Source: an uncultured Cohaesibacter sp. (GTDB taxonomy: Bacteria > Pseudomonadota > Alphaproteobacteria > Rhizobiales > Cohaesibacteraceae). From it: 64,000 bases of DNA. This document shows positions 40,696 through 56,822 of this stretch, piece by piece. The stretch covers positions 186,001 to 250,000 of the forward strand of contig NZ_OY762934.1 in assembly GCF_963667045.1 (NCBI RefSeq), read 5' to 3'. The position numbers were made by a program, and so were the translations under genes. Under the pieces are notes generated by a model. That model saw nothing but the letters and a program-made list of their open reading frames with translations. It was not told the DNA's origin and made no database searches. How positions within the stretch are numbered: the first letter of the stretch is position 1; every line of letters begins with the position of its first letter.

Positions 40696-42186
40696 TCAGA
40701 ATCGAACGGTGGCCTCGAACCCTCTGGATGTGCCGGTGATGGGCGACTTCAGCACGAGTGACGCGCCGCTGCCCTTGGTGATGGCCTCGACAATGGCGAG
40801 CCCCACCCCGCTGCCCTTGGCAGAGGTGTTGCCGCGTTCGAAGGGGCGGATCAGGCGTTCCATCACATCTGCGGGGATCGGGTCGCAATCATTGGCCACG
40901 GACAGGCTTTTGTCTCTTGCCAGTGTGATGGTGACGGTGCTTTCCGGGGGGGCGTGCTTGAGGGCATTCTCGACAAGATTGCGCAACAGGATGGCAAAGA
41001 CATTGGCATCAATCAGCAGGGGAAGCGGCTCTGACGGCAACAGAATGTCGAGCCGTTCGGAATCATCTCGGAATTCGTCCAATACCAGTCTGGCAATCGG
41101 CACGATGTCGCGTTCCTGTTCGGACAGCATGGATCCGCCCTCGGCGCGGGCCAACTGCATGAGCTTTTCGGTGAGACGGGAGAGCGACTTGAGCGCAGTT
41201 TCAATCTGATGGGCCCGGTCCCCGATGGTGCCTTCCCCGGCTTCAGAGATGAGGCGTTGGGTCTGTGCCAGCGCTGCGGCTACGGGGGTGCGCAACTCGT
41301 GGGCACTGTTGGCGGTAAAGCTGCGTTCGGCTTCCAGTGTCCTGCGCATGCGGTCGAGCAGATTATTGACGGCATCGGCGATAGGTTCGATTTCAGACGG
41401 CAGATTTTTGGCCCTGATCGGGGTCAGATCCCCTGCCCCACGCGCTTCGATGCCCGCGCGAAAGCCGCGCATCGGCCGCATGGATATGCGCACCAGCAGC
41501 CAGACACCGAGCATGCTGAGCGGCACCAGAATAAACAGCGGCATGGCAAGTGCTTTCAGGGTGTCATGTGCTGCCCGCTGCCGTCGTTCCATGGGGTCCG
41601 CGACGGAGATGATCACGTTGCCCTCAAGGGTGGAGCCGGTGAAAAAACGCTGGTCGTTGAGGGTGATGAAGCCCAATTGATTGATGTCCGGGAAGATTTC
41701 CGGATCGGCATGATTGGACTGCAGCAGGAGCCCGCCCCGGGCGTCTCTCACGATATAGGTGAGATACTGATCACCATCGGTTTTTAGCGACGGCTTTTCG
41801 ACCTTTTCCCGGTCTTTTTTTCGGGCCTTCTCTTCGCCATCATCATCCTCTTCGGTGTCTTTGCGCAGGTGGTGCTTGAAGTCATCGCGGGTGATGCCGT
41901 TTTCCGTGCGCCAGGATTTACCGATACGTCCGATATGGAGGCCATTGACCTTGAGATCCTCCATTTCATCGCTCCGGCCATTGCCCTCGACAATGTCGTG
42001 AATGACCGGTGGCAGCAGACGTTCCACAGCTTCGGCGAGGGCCTGATCAAAGGCGCCATCCAGCTCGTGCTTGACGACCAGTCCACTGACTGTGGTTGCT
42101 GCCAGCCAAAGCAACCCCACCCCCAGTGCGAGGCCGAGGGACAGACGCAGTTGCAGACTGTTTTTGATGAAGGACCTTACTTTCAT
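40696..42186 (-). CDS. Two-component sensor histidine kinase with acidic periplasmic domain
   Basis: 496 residues. TM1 about 17-35, a periplasmic domain to about 210, TM2 in LFILVPLSMLGVWLLV, HAMP, then an H box (SAHELRTP), N box (LRNLVENALKHAP) and G2 box (GSGVGLAIVEA). The periplasmic domain contains an acidic run at 110-119 (DTEEDDDGEE) followed by a Lys/Arg/Glu-rich stretch, unusual for this QseC/PmrB-like family. Overlaps the response-regulator gene by 4 bases. Divergent from the flavin electron-transfer genes, probable targets. Confidence 0.9.
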   Translation of the reverse strand: MKVRSFIKNSLQLRLSLGLALGVGLLWLAATTVSGLVVKHELDGAFDQALAEAVERLLPPVIHDIVEGNGRSDEMEDLKVNGLHIGRIGKSWRTENGITRDDFKHHLRKDTEEDDDGEEKARKKDREKVEKPSLKTDGDQYLTYIVRDARGGLLLQSNHADPEIFPDINQLGFITLNDQRFFTGSTLEGNVIISVADPMERRQRAAHDTLKALAMPLFILVPLSMLGVWLLVRISMRPMRGFRAGIEARGAGDLTPIRAKNLPSEIEPIADAVNNLLDRMRRTLEAERSFTANSAHELRTPVAAALAQTQRLISEAGEGTIGDRAHQIETALKSLSRLTEKLMQLARAEGGSMLSEQERDIVPIARLVLDEFRDDSERLDILLPSEPLPLLIDANVFAILLRNLVENALKHAPPESTVTITLARDKSLSVANDCDPIPADVMERLIRPFERGNTSAKGSGVGLAIVEAITKGSGASLVLKSPITGTSRGFEATVRF

Positions 42187-42842
42187 GACTGCTCCAGCCG
42201 ATAGCCCATACCACGTACGGTTTCGATTACGCCTGCTCCGAGCTTCTTGCGCATGCGGCTGATGTGGACCTCTATGGTGTTGCTCTCGATTTCCGCATCA
42301 AAGGTGTAGAGAGTTTCCTCCAGCTGGCTCTTGGAGAACAGATTGCCCGGATGTTGCAGAAAGGCTTCGAAAAGGGCCCATTCCCTCGCTGTCAGGGTCA
42401 CGGTCTTGCCCGCGCGCATGATGGTGCGGGCGGCGATGTCGATTTCCAGTTCGCCGATCTTGACCAACGGGTTGGGGTTGCCGCTGTAGCGGCGGGCAAC
42501 AGCCTTGAGGCGGGCTGTCAGTTCCTGCAGGTCAAAGGGTTTGACCAGATAGTCATCGGCACCGGCGTTGAGGCCGTCGATACGGTCGGAAATCTGATCG
42601 AGGGCAGTCAGGATGATGACCGGTGTAACATCGCCCGATGCTCTCAGCTTTCTGAGGAAGTTAAGGCCCAAACCATCTGGCAGCATCAGATCGAGCAGCA
42701 CAAGGTCATAGGGCGCGGCGCGCAGATAGTCCCCAGCAGCGTCCAGCCGCTGCACCCAATCCACGCTGTGCCCGTCGGCGGCGATCTGGTCGCGCACCGC
42801 AGACCCGAGCACCATGTCATCCTCGACCAACAAGACCCGCAT
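42183..42842 (-). CDS. OmpR/QseB-type response regulator
   Basis: 219 residues. The receiver domain has LLVEDD at 4-9, the phospho-acceptor Asp in VLLDLMLP and Lys in VKPFD; the C-terminal winged helix ends SNTIEVHISRMRKKL...VRGMGYRL. Translationally coupled to the kinase by an ATGA overlap. It is transcribed away from the 109-residue protein gene with a 184-base gap that should contain its target promoter. Confidence 0.94.
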   Translation of the reverse strand: MRVLLVEDDMVLGSAVRDQIAADGHSVDWVQRLDAAGDYLRAAPYDLVLLDLMLPDGLGLNFLRKLRASGDVTPVIILTALDQISDRIDGLNAGADDYLVKPFDLQELTARLKAVARRYSGNPNPLVKIGELEIDIAARTIMRAGKTVTLTAREWALFEAFLQHPGNLFSKSQLEETLYTFDAEIESNTIEVHISRMRKKLGAGVIETVRGMGYRLEQS

Positions 42843-43026
42843 CAGTCACTCACTTTCCTTCTCATATTTCATGCAACAGCGGCATTTTCCGCGCGCCTGA
42901 AGCCAGCCGCAGTGTCGCTGCGAAACCTTACAGGAAGCTGACGCAAAAAGAAATTCCCAGTCAGGTCGCCTTCAGGCTGGTGAGTGATAGTCCGTCCATC
43001 AAACCAATGGAAGGGAGACCGCAACC

Positions 43027-43356
43027 ATGAAGAAACTTGTAATTGGCGCATTGCTTGTCAGTGGCACCATTCTGGCCGCCACTGCGACCTGGGCTGAAGG
43101 CTATGGTCACGACAAACGCGGATATTATGGCGAGGAGCGCGAACACGGATATTCCGAACATGACAGGGATCGCCGGGACCACCGGGTAAGCCTGTTTGGC
43201 TGGCGCTTGCCTATCGGATGGCATTCCGATGACGATGACGACGATGACAACTATCGGTCTCGCGGCGCGCAGGCCGCAAAACAGGCGCCATCGGGGCCAA
43301 TCAACAACAACAAACTCATCACCAGGGGCTCAGCCCCGAAAGCTTCCATCAACTAG
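43027..43356 (+). CDS. Small secreted Asp/His-rich protein
   Basis: 109 residues with a clear signal peptide (MKKLVIGALLVSGTILA, cleavage near TWAEG). The mature part is hydrophilic, with many His, Tyr and acidic residues (YGHDKRGYYGEE) and seven consecutive Asp at 68-74. No known domain recognised. GGGAG ribosome site upstream. First gene of the flavin electron-transfer cluster and next to the two-component system; the acidic run suggests binding of a metal cation, by inference only. Confidence 0.75.
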   Translation: MKKLVIGALLVSGTILAATATWAEGYGHDKRGYYGEEREHGYSEHDRDRRDHRVSLFGWRLPIGWHSDDDDDDDNYRSRGAQAAKQAPSGPINNNKLITRGSAPKASIN

Positions 43357-43434: not shown

Positions 43435-43905
43435 ATGAACAAATATCTTGCCACCGCCACCCTCGCCTCGGTCGTTGCGCTGCCTGCTGTGGCGGAAGCT
43501 GCACCCGTGACCTTCACCACGACCATGAGCAACTATGGTGGGCCGGAAGCCTATATGGTGATGTATGTCACCGATGCCTCGGGTGCCTATCAGGGGTCAT
43601 TGTGGATGTCGGGCGGACGGGCCAAATACTACCGCGACCTGCGCGACTGGGCGCGTGCTACCGGTGCCAATCCTGCCGAAGTGGACGGTGTCACCGGGGC
43701 CAGCGTTGGCAGTGGTCGCACACTGAAGGTGACACTTAATCTGTCAGATGCGCTGTTCAATGCCGGCTATCAGCTGCATATCGACACTGCCGTCGAGAAC
43801 ATGGGCTCTGCACCTTCGGAAGTTGTGGTGCCACTGGCTTCGGGTAACGCAGGCAAGGCTGTGTCCGGCAAGCGCTTTGTCCGGTCCTTCAGCTTCAAGA
43901 TGTGA
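43435..43905 (+). CDS. DUF2271-type secreted protein with flavinylation-like motif
   Basis: 156 residues with a signal peptide (MNKYLATATLASVVALPAVA, cleavage near AEAAP). The body resembles the DUF2271 family found next to PepSY and ApbE genes: YMVMYVTDASGAYQGSLWMSG then KYYRDLRDW. Residues 84-90 read D-G-V-T-G-A-S, which fits the D-x-x-[ST]-G-A-[ST] site where ApbE attaches FMN to Thr; Thr87 would be the acceptor. AAGGAAA ribosome site. Probably a periplasmic electron carrier fed by the next gene. Confidence 0.78.
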   Translation: MNKYLATATLASVVALPAVAEAAPVTFTTTMSNYGGPEAYMVMYVTDASGAYQGSLWMSGGRAKYYRDLRDWARATGANPAEVDGVTGASVGSGRTLKVTLNLSDALFNAGYQLHIDTAVENMGSAPSEVVVPLASGNAGKAVSGKRFVRSFSFKM

Positions 43906-43954
43906 ACCTCCTTTCATTCTCTGACCGATTGCCACGAAAAAGAGATTTTCTGCC

Positions 43955-46168
43955 ATGCAGCAGCTTATTCATAAGATCACCGGCCTCTTTCTTCTGCCGC
44001 TCGTTCTCGTTCTGAGCCTGAGCGGGGCGGCCCTGTCCATTTATCCCGTTCTCGAGCGAAGCAGCCAGCCTCTGGAAAGCGCCGCGACCCTGTCTGTGGC
44101 CGAGTTGGCCGATGTGGTCAAGGAGGCCCATCCGGGCACATCGCAGATTGTCCGGCGCGCTTCTGGCCAGGTTATCGCCTACTACTATGAGAATGGTGTT
44201 TCCGGGGCCGAGCTGTTCGACCCGTCGACTGGTGCGGACCTTGGTTCCTATCAGCCGTCGCAAACCCAGATCTGGCTGACCGATCTGCATCGGTCGCTGT
44301 TTCTGGGTGATGGCGGGCGCATGACCGCAGGGGTTGGGGCTGCGGTGATGGTGCTTATCTGCGTGTCAGGCCTGATCATGCTCAAGCGGCGTATGGGGGG
44401 CTGGAAACAGCTGTTCGGGCCGGTGCGTGGCACCCTCTCCCAGCGGCTGCATCTGGAAGTCGCCCGCATCGCTGTTGCAGGCCTTTCTCTCAGTGCGCTC
44501 ACCGGGCTTTACATGACGGCAGCCACCTTCGGACTGGCTCCGGATGGCTCAGGTGCGGATGCTGCATTCCCGACTGTCAACGGCGGGACGCCAGCACAGA
44601 TCATTTCCCTTGAAGGCTTGCGCGAAACACCCGTCTCGCAACTGCGGGAGCTTTCCTTCCCCTATGAAGGAGATGCCAAGGATGCCTTCACCCTGACAAC
44701 GGCTGATGGCATGGGCTATGTGGATCAGGCTACCGGTGCGCTGTTGAACTATACGCCCAATGGCAGTGCCAAACAGATCTACGAGTTCATCTATATGCTG
44801 CATACCGGCGAAGGACTGGCTCCACTTGCCCTGCTGCTCGGGGTTGCCTCCCTCGGTGTGCCGCTCATGGGAGTGACCGGTGGTCTCATCTGGTGGCGGA
44901 AACGCCAGAGCAAGATCAAGATTGCAGGCAACGCCAAGACACGTGACGCGGACGCTGTCATCCTCGTGGGGAGTGAAGGCAACAGCACATGGGGCTTTGC
45001 CCGCAGCCTGCACGATGGTCTTGTCAAGGCGGGGTTGCGTGTTCACACCAGCGAGATGAATGCCTTTGCCGGGGACTATCCGCAAGCCAGGCTGATGTTT
45101 GTCCTCACCGCCACCTATGGCGATGGCGAGGCTCCGCGTTCTGCCAAGGGTTTTCTGGCAAAGCTCGGCAAATATGCCGGGGCGCAGAAGATACCGGTTG
45201 CCGTGCTTGGGTTTGGTGATCGCCAGTTCCCTAACTATTGTCAGTACGCACAGGACGTGAACCGTCAGCTCGTCCGGGAGGGATGGCCACTGTTCATGCC
45301 GCTTGCCGAGATCAATCGCCAGTCCGCACAGGAGTTTGCCCGCTGGAGTGAGGCACTGTCCAAACGGCTGGTGTTCGAGCTGGACCTCGAGCCGGTGGTC
45401 TCCCGTGTGCAGCAGCATCAACTGACGCTGGTGTCCCGCAAGGACTACGGTCACGAGGTTCAGGCGCCGACCACGGTCTTCCGCTTCAAGCTGGCCGACC
45501 ACAATCACTCGTGGGTTGCCCGTCTGTTCCGTAAGGGGTTGCCTTCCTTTGAGCCGGGAGATCTGCTCAGCATTACGCCGGAGGGAGACAGTGTGCCGCG
45601 CTACTATTCTCTGGCATCGGCCCGCAAGAACGGCTTTGTCGAGATTTGCGTTCGCAATGTGCCCGGTGGGCTTTGCTCGGGGTATCTGCATGGTCTTCAG
45701 CCGGGGGACAGCATCAAGGCTGCCTTTCAGGCCAACCCGGGCTTCCAGCTCAAGAAATCCAGCGCGCCGGTCATTCTCATTGGTGCCGGTGCCGGGATTG
45801 GTCCACTGATCGGATTTGTGCGCAATAACCAAAAGAAAAGGCAGATGCGGCTCTATTTCGGTGCGCGCCATCCGCAATCGGATTTCCTTTATCACAAGGA
45901 GCTTGGGGACTGGCACAAGACGGGGTTCGTTCATTCGGTCAAGCTTGCCTTTTCCCGAACCCACCAGCGGCTCTATGTGCAGGATCGCATCCGGCAGGAT
46001 GCTGCGGAACTCTCGGCCCTCGTTCGTGATGGCGCCCAGATCATGATCTGCGGTGGTCGGGAGATGGCCAAGGGAATTGAGGAAGCCTTCATGGACGTCC
46101 TCAAGTCTTCCGGCATGGACCTGGCCGACCTCAAGAAGGAGGGGCGTTATGTTGAAGATGTCTTTTGA
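43955..46168 (+). CDS. PepSY-flavodoxin-ferredoxin reductase fusion protein
   Basis: 737 residues in three parts. Residues 1-310 form a PepSY-associated membrane domain with four helices (about 7-30, 122-142, 166-186, 284-308). A flavodoxin domain follows (about 332-470: GSEGNSTWGFA phosphate loop, TATYGDGEAP, LGFGDRQFPNY), then a sulfite-reductase-type FNR domain (RYYSLAS for FAD; GGLCSGYLH; GAGAGIGPL and MICGGREMAKG for NAD(P)H). It should pass electrons from cytoplasmic NAD(P)H through FAD and FMN to the membrane side. Related to the PiuB-type flavoproteins. Overlaps apbE by 20 bases. Confidence 0.88.
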   Translation: MQQLIHKITGLFLLPLVLVLSLSGAALSIYPVLERSSQPLESAATLSVAELADVVKEAHPGTSQIVRRASGQVIAYYYENGVSGAELFDPSTGADLGSYQPSQTQIWLTDLHRSLFLGDGGRMTAGVGAAVMVLICVSGLIMLKRRMGGWKQLFGPVRGTLSQRLHLEVARIAVAGLSLSALTGLYMTAATFGLAPDGSGADAAFPTVNGGTPAQIISLEGLRETPVSQLRELSFPYEGDAKDAFTLTTADGMGYVDQATGALLNYTPNGSAKQIYEFIYMLHTGEGLAPLALLLGVASLGVPLMGVTGGLIWWRKRQSKIKIAGNAKTRDADAVILVGSEGNSTWGFARSLHDGLVKAGLRVHTSEMNAFAGDYPQARLMFVLTATYGDGEAPRSAKGFLAKLGKYAGAQKIPVAVLGFGDRQFPNYCQYAQDVNRQLVREGWPLFMPLAEINRQSAQEFARWSEALSKRLVFELDLEPVVSRVQQHQLTLVSRKDYGHEVQAPTTVFRFKLADHNHSWVARLFRKGLPSFEPGDLLSITPEGDSVPRYYSLASARKNGFVEICVRNVPGGLCSGYLHGLQPGDSIKAAFQANPGFQLKKSSAPVILIGAGAGIGPLIGFVRNNQKKRQMRLYFGARHPQSDFLYHKELGDWHKTGFVHSVKLAFSRTHQRLYVQDRIRQDAAELSALVRDGAQIMICGGREMAKGIEEAFMDVLKSSGMDLADLKKEGRYVEDVF

Positions 46169-47162
46169 TATGCCAAAGGTTGAACCGGTTAGCCCCGGTC
46201 TTCATCGCCATGTCTTCAATGGTCCCACCATGGGCACGCGCTACAGTGCCATCATCATGAGTGAGGAGAGCGAGAAGCCGAAGGGCCTTGATCAGGCCCT
46301 GTTCGAGACGGTGGACCGGGTAGACCGGCAAATGTCGACCTGGAACCCGGCATCAGACCTCATGCGGCTCAATCGGGCCGAGCCGGGACAATGGACGCCT
46401 GTGCCGCGTGAGCTGTTCACGGTGCTGACGGAAGCCATGGCGATCAACCGCGCCTCCAGCGGCCTGTTCGACCCAGCCGTCGGCGACATGGTGGATGCCT
46501 GGGGATTCGGGGCTGCGTCGAAGGAGCCCGATCCGCTCGCAATCCGCCAGCAATTGGGGCGCGGCCGTCCCAAGAGCTGTGACTTCATCGAGTTGGACCC
46601 CGACCGTCTGGCTGTCCGCAAGTCGGTGGCCATGAAGCTTGATCTCTGTGGCATTGCCAAGGGCTATGGCGTCGATGCCATGGCAGATGTTCTCGCTGAT
46701 TTCGGGATCGAGAACGGGCTTGTCGGAATTGACGGCGAGATGCGTGCCCTGGGCGCAAAGGCCGGAGACCTGCCGTGGTCGGTGGCGCTGGAAAAACCCG
46801 ATTACACCACCCGTGCGGCTCTGGGCATGTTGCAGCTGAGCGATTGTGCCATTGCCACCAGTGGCGACTATCGCCACTGGGTGAAGGTTGGCAACCAGAC
46901 CTTCAGCCACACGATGGATCCCCGCCGTGGTGGTCCGTTGCAGAATGACGTGGCTTCGGTGAGTGTCATCGCCGATCGCTGCATGACGGCTGATGCCTGG
47001 GCAACGGCGCTGATGGTGATGGGACATGATGCGGGCGTGCATGTGGCGCGCGCCAAAGGGATCAACGCGCTGTTTGTCGTCCGGGATGGCGATCACCTCA
47101 GGCAGGTCGCCGTGGGGCCACTGTTTGGTGCTGCGGCTGCCAGTGTCAAGGATGTTCACTGA
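46149..47162 (+). CDS. apbE: FAD:protein FMN transferase ApbE
   Basis: 337 residues. ApbE family signatures: GTRYSAI near the N terminus, STWNPASDLMRLN, GLFDPAVGDMVDAWGF, LDLCGIAKGYGVD, ATSGDYRHW and HTMDPRRGGP, the last two near the Mg/FAD site. ApbE transfers FMN from FAD to Ser/Thr in target proteins. I see no signal peptide or lipobox at the ATG (46149, preceded by AGGAGGGG), unlike periplasmic ApbE lipoproteins. Overlaps the fusion gene upstream; terminator at 47198. Confidence 0.92.
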   Translation: MLKMSFDMPKVEPVSPGLHRHVFNGPTMGTRYSAIIMSEESEKPKGLDQALFETVDRVDRQMSTWNPASDLMRLNRAEPGQWTPVPRELFTVLTEAMAINRASSGLFDPAVGDMVDAWGFGAASKEPDPLAIRQQLGRGRPKSCDFIELDPDRLAVRKSVAMKLDLCGIAKGYGVDAMADVLADFGIENGLVGIDGEMRALGAKAGDLPWSVALEKPDYTTRAALGMLQLSDCAIATSGDYRHWVKVGNQTFSHTMDPRRGGPLQNDVASVSVIADRCMTADAWATALMVMGHDAGVHVARAKGINALFVVRDGDHLRQVAVGPLFGAAAASVKDVH

Positions 47163-54560: not shown

Positions 54561-56075
54561 CTAGTTGGTGAAGATGTCGCGCGGGAGCGTGATCCCAACC
54601 CTCAGGCCTTCATTGCTGTTGCTCAAGGTCATCTCACCCTTGTGGTTGCGAATGATTTCATTGGCGATACTCAGCCCAAGCCCAACCCCTTTGGTCTTGT
54701 GCCCTTCATGACCTCGTTCAAATGGCAGGAAGACCTTCTCGATCTGGTCGCTCGGAATGCCCGGGCCACCATCGACAATGGTGATGACTGTTCGTTCGCT
54801 GCCATCGTAGCCGAGGGACACCTTGGCATAGCGTCCATATTTGAGGGCATTGTCGATGATGTTGGACAAGGCCCGGCGCAACTGTTTGGGGCGCCCGATC
54901 ATGAAGCCCTGTGTGAGGGCCGAGAGTTCTACCGAAGCGGCGACGCTGAAGACCGAAGCCACACCCTCAATCTCTATGGGCTGTTTCGAGTCGAAGGTCA
55001 CATTGAGTTCCATGTCCTGATAGTCGTCGCAGAGGCTGGTGATGAGCGAGCTCAGCGAGAAGCGGTGCCTCTCCTCGTTATTCTTGTGCAGGGAGAGGAA
55101 ATCGAGAGCGCCCTCGACCAGATCATGGATGGATTCAAGATCGTTGGCAAAGCGCTCCCTGATGTCGTCTTCCTTGATCATCTCGGTGCGCAGCAGCATG
55201 CGGGTAACCGGTGTGCGCAGATCATGGGAAATGGCGGCAAGGCCCAGAAGCTGGCGCTCCCTGTCCCGATCGAACCGCTTGACCAGCTCTCGCATGTTGT
55301 CCTGAATGGCCAGTGCCTCGGTCGGCGCGAAGCGCCCCAGAGACTTGCGGGTGAATTTGGTGCCGTTGCTGAGTTTCCTGAACGGGGCCATGAGTGTATT
55401 GGAAAAGGGGAAGCTGACCGAGAGGATAAGGATCGCGAGAAACAGGGTCATGAAGGCCCCTTGCGTTTCGGAAACGCGCACCCGCCATAGTCTGGGCGAG
55501 CTGATTGCCATGACACGGTCATCTTCTCCAAAGATGAAGAGGGTTGCATCAATGTCCTGACGAGCAATGGCCTGGGAAAGCGACGCCATGCGCATGGCGG
55601 CAGGAATGGACGCATTGGGGAACTGGTCGCCACCCTGGCTCTGAAGGGTTGGGGTGTAGATGCTGTCTTCATGCAGGCTGGTGCTATGCCGTTTGGCGCT
55701 CAGGAGCCCCGGCAGCGGTGGGGCTGCCGTGAACCGCACCGCAGCCCGGATCCGCTTGTCATTGAGCGTCAGGATCAGGGGCGACACATAGCTGTCTGTC
55801 TCTTTTGGGAAACTGTCGAGCATGTGAAAGCTGTAGGGTTGCTCGTCGCTGTTGCAAGGATCTTCCTGAAATGTAGCGGTCTCGATGCATTGCTCAATGA
55901 TCTGGGACAGATGCCCGCCGGTCATTTCGGCGATGGTGATCTCGTTTCTGCGGACCAGATAGGTCTCAATCACGATCCACGTCGTCCCGATCCCGGCAAC
56001 AAAGGCAAGGGAGAGCATCGTTGCGATGCGGGCAGCCTGACTGCGCGGGAAGATCGACAGGATGAATTGCCACAT
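54561..56075 (-). CDS. Sensor histidine kinase (GtrS-like)
   Basis: 504 residues. TM1 about 13-38, a large periplasmic sensor domain with a Cys pair (EQCIETATFQEDPCNSD), TM2 in AFMTLFLAILILSVSF, HAMP, H box AAISHDLRTPVTRM, N box SNIIDNALKYG, G1 VDGGPGIP and G2 KGVGLGLSIANE. It lies directly after a response regulator that is divergent from a glucose-type ABC operon, the same arrangement as Pseudomonas gltR-gtrS next to the glucose importer genes, so it probably senses a sugar or sugar acid. Confidence 0.88.
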   Translation of the reverse strand: MWQFILSIFPRSQAARIATMLSLAFVAGIGTTWIVIETYLVRRNEITIAEMTGGHLSQIIEQCIETATFQEDPCNSDEQPYSFHMLDSFPKETDSYVSPLILTLNDKRIRAAVRFTAAPPLPGLLSAKRHSTSLHEDSIYTPTLQSQGGDQFPNASIPAAMRMASLSQAIARQDIDATLFIFGEDDRVMAISSPRLWRVRVSETQGAFMTLFLAILILSVSFPFSNTLMAPFRKLSNGTKFTRKSLGRFAPTEALAIQDNMRELVKRFDRDRERQLLGLAAISHDLRTPVTRMLLRTEMIKEDDIRERFANDLESIHDLVEGALDFLSLHKNNEERHRFSLSSLITSLCDDYQDMELNVTFDSKQPIEIEGVASVFSVAASVELSALTQGFMIGRPKQLRRALSNIIDNALKYGRYAKVSLGYDGSERTVITIVDGGPGIPSDQIEKVFLPFERGHEGHKTKGVGLGLSIANEIIRNHKGEMTLSNSNEGLRVGITLPRDIFTN

Positions 56076-56090
56076 GGTGTTGCGGTCTTT

Positions 56091-56822
56091 CTAGAGATTG
56101 AATTTCAGGTCCCGGGATGCCCTGCCCGAAGATTCTATTTCAGAACAGAATTTGTAGCCCTGATTGCGAACGGTCCGGATGAACTGGGCCTTGCTGTCGA
56201 CGTCGGTGATCTTCTTGCGCAGACGGCTGACAAGAATATCGATCCGCCGGTCACCCGGTTCGATGTCGTGGCCAATGAGCAACTGGGCCAACTCGTCACG
56301 GGAAACCGGATTGGGAGAGGCATGCACCAGTATCGACAGGACGGCATATTCCCTTGTGCTGAGCGGCACCAGCAGGTTGCCAGGTGCGTGCAACTGCTCG
56401 TTGGTCAGATCAAGCAGCCAGCCGCTGAAGGTAAGTTTACCCGTCGTGGCCGAACGCTCGCCGGGACCGGTGCGTCGCAACAGTGCATTGATTCGAGCCA
56501 ATAGCTCACGAGGATTGAATGGTTTTTCCATATAGTCATCGGCGCCCAGTTCGAGACCGATGATCCGCTCGGTGTCTCCCTTGACTGCGGACAGGATAAT
56601 GATGGGAATGCGGGACGTTGCCCGAACCTTCTTGCAGAAAGCGAGGCCGCTTTCGCCGGGCAGCATCAGGTCGACGATCAGCAGATCGAACAGCACATTG
56701 CCACGCCTGTAGGCGGCTTCTGCGGATTCTGACACGACGCACTGAAAATTGCGTGCAACCAGATATGATGACAACAGAGACGAAATCTCGGGATCATCTT
56801 CTATGATGTGGATACGTTGCAC
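56091..56822 (-). CDS. OmpR-family response regulator (GltR-like)
   Basis: 243 residues. Receiver domain with IIEDDPE, phospho-acceptor Asp in LLIVDLMLPGESG and Lys in EKPFNPREL; winged-helix output domain with DRRIDILVSRLRKKI and RTVRNQGYKF. A 15-base gap separates it from the kinase. The promoter region shared with the plus-strand binding-protein gene contains a 23-bp palindrome that is a good candidate for its site. Confidence 0.92.
   Translation of the reverse strand: MQRIHIIEDDPEISSLLSSYLVARNFQCVVSESAEAAYRRGNVLFDLLIVDLMLPGESGLAFCKKVRATSRIPIIILSAVKGDTERIIGLELGADDYMEKPFNPRELLARINALLRRTGPGERSATTGKLTFSGWLLDLTNEQLHAPGNLLVPLSTREYAVLSILVHASPNPVSRDELAQLLIGHDIEPGDRRIDILVSRLRKKITDVDSKAQFIRTVRNQGYKFCSEIESSGRASRDLKFNL

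Follow-up and report, generated by a model that had tools for sequence, protein, structure and literature searches.

We analyzed a 64,000-bp stretch of DNA, hereafter the window (C1:186001-250000 of a 5.24-Mb genome), from a Cohaesibacter-like alphaproteobacterium, in which a gene for a DUF2271 protein is followed by genes for a PepSY-flavodoxin-FNR fusion protein and for ApbE, an enzyme that transfers flavin mononucleotide (FMN) from flavin adenine dinucleotide (FAD) to proteins. Our data suggest that these genes probably encode a transmembrane module under two-component control, in which a cytosolic ApbE flavinylates DUF2271 before or during Sec export. The broader proposition, in which cytosolic ApbEs of an entire clade add FMN to a Sec-targeted carrier while it is still inside the cell, so that the chain handled by Sec already bears its covalent FMN, stands evenly balanced in our judgment. 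Published work is cited here from the portions of each source that were covered. In these, the core idea is already published and the locus belongs to a published kind of cluster; three points were not found there, namely a cluster ApbE without a leader, genomes with this ApbE as the only one, and linkage to a two-component system and a DNA element.

In the mechanism that we propose, the cytosolic FNR part of the fusion would oxidize NAD(P)H, and electrons would pass from the flavodoxin FMN through two hemes in the membrane-embedded PepSY part and reach an FMN on Thr87 of periplasmic DUF2271, whose own acceptor would most likely be ferric iron or a ferric chelate. While DUF2271 is still a precursor, before or during its export by Sec, cytosolic ApbE would form the Thr87-FMN bond, making periplasmic FAD unnecessary. 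A histidine kinase and an OmpR-type regulator would control the operon through a 49-bp palindromic site. The route from NAD(P)H through the fusion to an ApbE-flavinylated periplasmic carrier was put forward in an earlier note on this DNA (the original prediction); it matches the published model of PepSY-like clusters (PMC8238504) and agrees with the domain content, four conserved histidines, and motif conservation described below. The features of the locus are as follows.

40696..42186, minus strand: sensor histidine kinase with HisKA and HATPase_c, HAMP being below cut-off (Pfam)
42183..42842, minus strand: OmpR-type response regulator with Response_reg and Trans_reg_C, conserved together with the kinase (Pfam)
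42927..42975, no strand: 49-bp palindromic element between the divergent genes, candidate response-regulator site (motif scan)
43027..43356, plus strand: small His/Asp-rich protein, its N terminus signal-like by eye (open reading frame)
43435..43905, plus strand: DUF2271 (PF10029) protein with a Sec-type signal peptide, predicted FMN carrier (Pfam, leader rule)
43684..43704, plus strand: flavinylation motif D84-G-V-T87-G-A-S90, acceptor codon 43693-43695 (translation, alignment)
43955..46168, plus strand: PepSY_TM-flavodoxin-FAD_binding_6-NAD_binding_1 fusion (Pfam)
46149..47162, plus strand: ApbE FAD:protein FMN transferase without an export leader, start at 46149 or 46158 (Pfam, reading frame)

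The DUF2271 carrier and the PepSY fusion

Open reading frames and a Pfam search confirmed that the DUF2271, fusion, and apbE genes form one run on the plus strand, as originally described. The DUF2271 protein (156 amino acids) matched PF10029 with 114.8 bits against a cut-off of 27.3, and its closest named relatives are those of Cohaesibacter haloalkalitolerans (94%) and C. marisflavi (84%). Its reported attachment motif was found in place, with residues 84 to 90 reading DGVTGAS and Thr87 encoded at 43693-43695; the protein thus combines PF10029 with the conserved [S/T]GA[S/T] of ApbE-flavinylated DUF2271 proteins. DUF2271 is a known ApbE substrate: in E. coli, the cognate ApbE flavinylated one homologue, from A. 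ursilacus, on the motif threonine, and the modification was lost on a Thr-to-Ala change; covalent FMN has been shown for this homologue only (PMC8238504). By analogy with it, the window protein is predicted to be flavinylated as well.

For comparison, we searched for PF10029 among 397 genomes of the order, of which 62 had a match, and among 398 of the phylum, of which 70 did, a few genomes being in both sets. We fetched 60 of the 61 DUF2271 places from the order search (G199:C300 was left out) and 65 from the phylum search, leaving out partial and sub-cut-off PF10029 hits except for three G324 stretches. The analyzed loci numbered 129 including the window, and DUF2271 was recognized in 128. 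Loci with DUF2271, a PepSY-flavodoxin-FNR fusion, and apbE were called type II (63 with apbE, window included, and 2 without), and those with a short PepSY protein and a separate or unseen flavodoxin/FNR part were called type I (34 with apbE and 17 without). The remainder comprised four ApbE-DUF2271 fusions, one PepSY-flavodoxin-ApbE fusion, and seven loci without a recognized PepSY protein, some at contig ends. One locus classed as type I without apbE, L089, appears to be a truncated type II locus at a contig end, since it holds a partial fusion gene and two-component genes.

The original interpretation hinged on conservation of the motif in homologues, and this was found: [DN]xx[ST]GA[ST] was kept in 59/63 type II loci with apbE, leaving the interpretation unrefuted. 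The three other complete type II motifs were SGITGAS (twice) and DGLTGPS (once), and the aligned acceptor was Ser or Thr in 62/63, the exception being a fragment (L193) gapped at that position. Judged by this alignment, the type II motif is not a product of chance. Type I loci with apbE were looser, at 14/34 by the motif rule and 34/34 for Ser or Thr at the acceptor. The motif was not restricted to apbE-linked members; it was also present in loci without apbE in the fetched stretch (8/17 type I, 2/2 type II, and 3/5 without PepSY). The four ApbE-DUF2271 fusions (L174, L175, L177, and L178) carry an N-terminal leader and degenerate acceptor motifs, which read HGIARET, DGVTRPT, DGVSRPT, and DAMSGPT, respectively.

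A hydrophobicity rule found a leader on DUF2271 in 125/128 loci, including 62/63 of type II. Export through Tat was rejected as a candidate, with a Tat-like signal on 1 of 118 DUF2271 proteins. Among rows with a scored ATG leader, signal peptides were less hydrophobic where apbE was in the cluster, with medians of 2.47 (60 type II; P = 0.007) and 2.17 (32 type I; P = 8.5e-5) against 2.71 (17 type I without apbE). This would fit slow export, but it is confounded by descent and we give it no weight. The predicted DUF2271 model was beta-rich, with a mean predicted local distance difference test (pLDDT) score of 70.7 and low confidence (<50) in the motif loop; it matched no PDB fold at an E value of 0.001 or better, and the sequence found no relative among PDB sequences, where the only two rows were at chance level (E = 0.76 and 0.77). 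A viral origin was also considered and rejected, as a scan of viral contigs with DUF2271 gave no relative. Among plasmid records, 95 matched at 60 to 80% identity, none spanning 80% of the query. Elsewhere in the same genome (G000:C1:4100628-4100774), a weak partial PF10029 match of 26.6 bits lies in a 232-amino-acid open frame, and several genomes of the genus show similarly weak matches.

The fusion protein (737 amino acids) has the composition originally assigned to it, with PepSY_TM (residues 5 to 316), Flavodoxin_1 (336 to 458), FAD_binding_6 (535 to 588), and NAD_binding_1 (608 to 709) all above the Pfam cut-offs; similarity to CysJ and cytochrome P450 reductase was found in its C-terminal half. 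Four membrane stretches lie near residues 2-34, 120-145, 172-190, and 286-313, and the basic residues following the second and fourth place both ends in the cytosol by the positive-inside rule. Histidines 6, 112, 166, and 283 were kept in at least 98% of 66 PepSY fusion rows, a pattern that would fit two bis-His heme sites. The predicted structure of the fusion was poor (pLDDT 41) and was not used.

The original prediction made no mention of the divergently oriented kinase and regulator genes, of the small gene that opens the run (43027-43356), or of the leader missing from ApbE. The small protein has no Pfam match, and its clear homologues are confined to loci of the same genus; 38/63 type II loci (e.g., L081 and L182) instead hold a PepSY_2 gene in the cluster, whose product is possibly its counterpart.

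A linked two-component system, a DNA element, and the electron acceptor

Homologues of the kinase and regulator were present within the fetched locus in 57/63 type II loci with apbE, the six others being L072, L092, L095, L180, L184, and the fragment L193. The region between these genes and the operon was conserved across the aligned Cohaesibacter sequences (six of eight, L051 and L069 not being included) and holds CTTACA-N5-CTGACG. A degenerate form, CTKACR-N5-CTKACR, matched once in the window against 0.05 matches expected. The complete element consists of CTKAMR-N5-CTKAMR, a 15-bp spacer, and an inverted copy on the opposite strand, with the centers of the two copies 32 bp apart; it was scanned for with this wider box, allowing one mismatch. 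Positions 42927-42975 were the only window match with at most 4 of the 24 fixed positions differing, and this match itself differs at one.

Inverted pairs 31 to 33 bp apart were found in 56/58 type II loci with two-component genes (the exceptions being L090 and L185) and in 0/174 Markov-1 random loci; the box behind these counts was not set in advance, having been chosen after the Cohaesibacter alignment was seen and widened after hits in other loci. The 32-bp spacing was no part of the chosen box, and 68 pairs fell at this distance, compared to at most two at any other distance up to 80 bp. Outside that class the element occurred in 4/70 loci. Two of these, L089 and L192, have two-component genes and lie at contig ends, and the other two, L180 and L184, are type II loci whose regulator is not in the fetched stretch and may be located elsewhere.

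OmpR-type regulators recognize directly repeated half sites that are spaced by roughly one turn of the helix and lie close to the promoter under control. The half sites of the element show this pattern in sequence, repeating with an 11-bp period. Both binding of the regulator to the element as an operator and the sign of any control are inferred. A second two-component pair, judged by eye, apparently lies at 54561-56822 of the window.

Published PepSY-like clusters (3,220, with DUF2271 named in 2,833) are linked to iron as proposed iron reductases (PMC8238504), and transposon sequencing (Tn-seq) and expression data from Caulobacter back an iron role (PMC12004947), so that iron is here a candidate acceptor taken over from homologues. 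It is possible, but the less probable case, that the module works as described with a different acceptor, feeding a respiratory or stress-repair reductase or acting on another metal sensed by the two-component system. The linked two-component system and element speak for this, as the Caulobacter and Shewanella PepSY clusters are instead reported to be under Fur control, and so do cytochrome b561 genes in three type II loci and the occurrence of PepSY-domain proteins with two-component systems in uranium, zinc, and copper responses (PMC8963506). No known metal motif was recognized by eye in the kinase sensor region. Weighing against iron, no iron genes were recognized among the six window proteins that were family scanned. 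Against a non-iron acceptor, Fur repression, Tn-seq with ethylenediaminetetraacetic acid (EDTA), and work on VciB, FoxB, and HiuB tie PepSY/DUF2271 clusters to iron (PMC8238504, PMC12004947, PMC13001220).

A cluster ApbE without a recognizable export leader

The window ApbE matched PF02424 with 271 bits and has the catalytic His of an FMN transferase: the His of its FSHTMDP segment aligns with that of SHIIDP in 6nxi, a segment that reads SGIIDP in 6nxj, which we take to be a catalytic mutant. With a start at 46149 or 46158 and the fusion ending at 46168, apbE overlaps the fusion gene. By the hydrophobicity rule, the protein lacks the N-terminal export or lipid signal of a typical exported ApbE. 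The rule called a leader in 0/70 response regulators, used as the negative set, and in 16/105 ApbEs (2/63 of type II, 9/34 of type I, 4/4 ApbE-DUF2271 fusions, and L191). The last had been a candidate PepSY-ApbE fusion and proved to be a separate, non-cluster ApbE with a leader. By contrast, a leader was found in 47/50 control ApbEs chosen from among the non-cluster places of the same 121 genomes, many with a lipobox or RRR stretch; the three leaderless controls were one cut by a contig end (L105) and two that group together in the tree (L194 and L196).

Neither type II call was convincing, as one start lies inside the overlapping fusion gene (L093) and the other rests on nine residues with a score of 1.66 that immediately precede the domain (L055). 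The open frame starts at most 30 codons before the ApbE domain in 30/63 type II loci and at most 45 codons before it in 42/63. For the Rhodobacter sp. SW2 ApbE, translation from the first start past the in-frame stop yields MSIDLITLNGPTMGT, with no space left for a signal. A hidden longer start is unlikely where in-frame stops leave little room. Among the nine flagged type I ApbEs, L142 alone has a plain lipoprotein signal, six have a proline-bearing [RH]VxxP stretch near the N terminus that is also present in unflagged members, and L134 and L173 have other proline-bearing stretches.

In a tree of 152 ApbEs (quick method, midpoint root, matches with <200 aligned residues left out), 62 type II proteins and L096 formed a single clade of 63 rows with a Shimodaira-Hasegawa-like approximate likelihood ratio test (SH-aLRT) value of 100. 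The type I proteins formed a clade of 34 (SH-aLRT 95), from which the lipoprotein L142 branched first. L096 (G027:C1) is a single PepSY-flavodoxin-ApbE protein without the FNR part; it has no membrane stretch between flavodoxin and ApbE, and the adjoining DUF2271 has a leader and DGITGAS. This is a single case, but it places ApbE on the flavodoxin side of the membrane.

In 21 type II genomes, 20 from the order and another from the class, the leaderless cluster ApbE was the single ApbE match; these genomes are 97 to 100% complete except for G284 (93%) and G296 (83%). FMN_bind, NqrB/RnfD, and DUF3570 were each found in 0/21 at an E value of 0.001, leaving DUF2271 as the only ApbE target among the families searched; the absence of DUF3570 strengthens the case slightly. 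Of the type I loci with apbE, 30/34 are also in one-ApbE genomes, other targets having been searched in the type II set only. The window genome is outside the 21, with two FMN_bind matches, two NqrB/RnfD matches, and a second ApbE. This protein (L033, G000:C1:1224489-1225343) is a lipoprotein (LAGC) adjoining an apparent nqrA, judged by eye, with NqrB and FMN_bind matches at most 5 kb away, and is an exported counterpart of the leaderless cluster enzyme.

Taken together, a leader on DUF2271 and none on ApbE suggest that flavinylation takes place in the cytosol, ahead of export. It is unlikely, in our view, that ApbE instead leaves the cytosol without a recognizable N-terminal signal and flavinylates exported DUF2271 in the periplasm, as in NQR and RNF. 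Export is the rule of the family, as the controls illustrate, yet a convincing leader is missing throughout the type II set, often with little room for one; the rarity of Tat-like signals on DUF2271 leaves no Tat carrier for ApbE to accompany as a partner, and in L096 the flavodoxin joined to ApbE is expected to lie on the cytosolic side.

Several points nevertheless weigh against loading in the cytosol. Leaders were called by one home-made hydrophobicity rule with every possible start codon tried, not by SignalP, and eight flagged type I ApbEs were set aside by eye. The exported kind is represented here by the lipoprotein L142 and the four leader-bearing ApbE-DUF2271 fusions. Non-cluster ApbEs were read in 20 phylum genomes, and in 13 of them DUF2271 is paired with this leader-bearing ApbE as the sole one; among the 13 is the genome of type II locus L185, whose fetched stretch contains no apbE. 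Periplasmic maturation thus probably also occurs. The target search covered FMN_bind, NqrB/RnfD, DUF3570, and DUF2271, with others, such as the flavodoxin-like targets of PMC11334425, outside it. The A. ursilacus work used a signal-peptide-truncated cognate ApbE (PMC8238504), so at least one DUF2271-linked ApbE has been taken as exported, and an early study found that the thiamine-linked function of ApbE needs a periplasmic enzyme (reviewed in PMC12052999). The literature covered gave no demonstration of Sec export of an FMN-bearing chain. Nor did it give a leaderless ApbE with an exported target; subscription journals were mostly outside it, and such a case may be in the tables of PMC8238504.

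The least probable reading is that the leaderless ApbE modifies another cytosolic protein, such as the fusion, with DUF2271 unflavinylated or served by another enzyme: known cytosolic ApbEs do serve cytosolic targets (PMC12052999), but the only [ST]GA[STAG] stretch of the fusion sits in its first membrane helix with its Ser kept in 64% of the 66 rows, which makes the fusion an unlikely target, while DUF2271 keeps its own motif and the other target families searched are absent from the 21 one-ApbE genomes.

If loading before export is correct, a covalent cofactor can be placed on a Sec substrate before it leaves the cytosol. Bacteria whose only ApbE looks cytosolic and whose only target of a known family is exported would make the place of flavinylation directly testable, and the 49-bp element offers a handle on the signal and regulon of a large, little-characterized family of extracytosolic reductases.

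Comparison with known systems

PepSY-like clusters are defined by PF03929 or PF16357 within five genes of apbE or DUF2271, and the window has PF03929 (126.7 bits) in the gene between the two. It shares with the clusters of Meheust et al. 2021 (PMC8238504) a DUF2271 with [S/T]GA[S/T], a PepSY membrane protein, and ApbE, as well as the NAD-binding domain present in some of their PepSY proteins. It differs in the linked two-component system and 49-bp element and in the ApbE without a recognizable leader, the location of ApbE not being discussed in the covered part of that paper. The siderophore reductases FoxB and HiuB likewise have PepSY_TM and four conserved His in positions that could serve two hemes, but no fused flavodoxin-FNR part is described for them in the portions covered (PMC13001220; PMC11334425).

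Caulobacter crescentus CCNA_03155-03159 also combines a flavin reductase, a PepSY protein (COG3295), and DUF2271, and has a fitness role under EDTA (PMC12004947). These genes are reported as Fur targets and include a DUF4198 gene, whereas the window has a divergent two-component system, and DUF4198 gave no match among its six scanned proteins. The Caulobacter UzcR site, CATTAC-N6-TTAA (PMC8963506), differs from the window's element.

For ApbE itself, the cytosolic enzyme of Klebsiella pneumoniae also has no signal peptide, but it acts on a soluble fumarate reductase of the cytosol, while the predicted target in the window has a Sec-type signal; ApbE can modify tags as short as seven residues (PMC12052999). 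NqrC and RnfG, served by a lipoprotein ApbE, share with the window system the covalent FMN predicted here, the enzyme family, and the type of motif, and differ in that their ApbE is exported, unlike the cluster ApbE of the window (PMC12052999).

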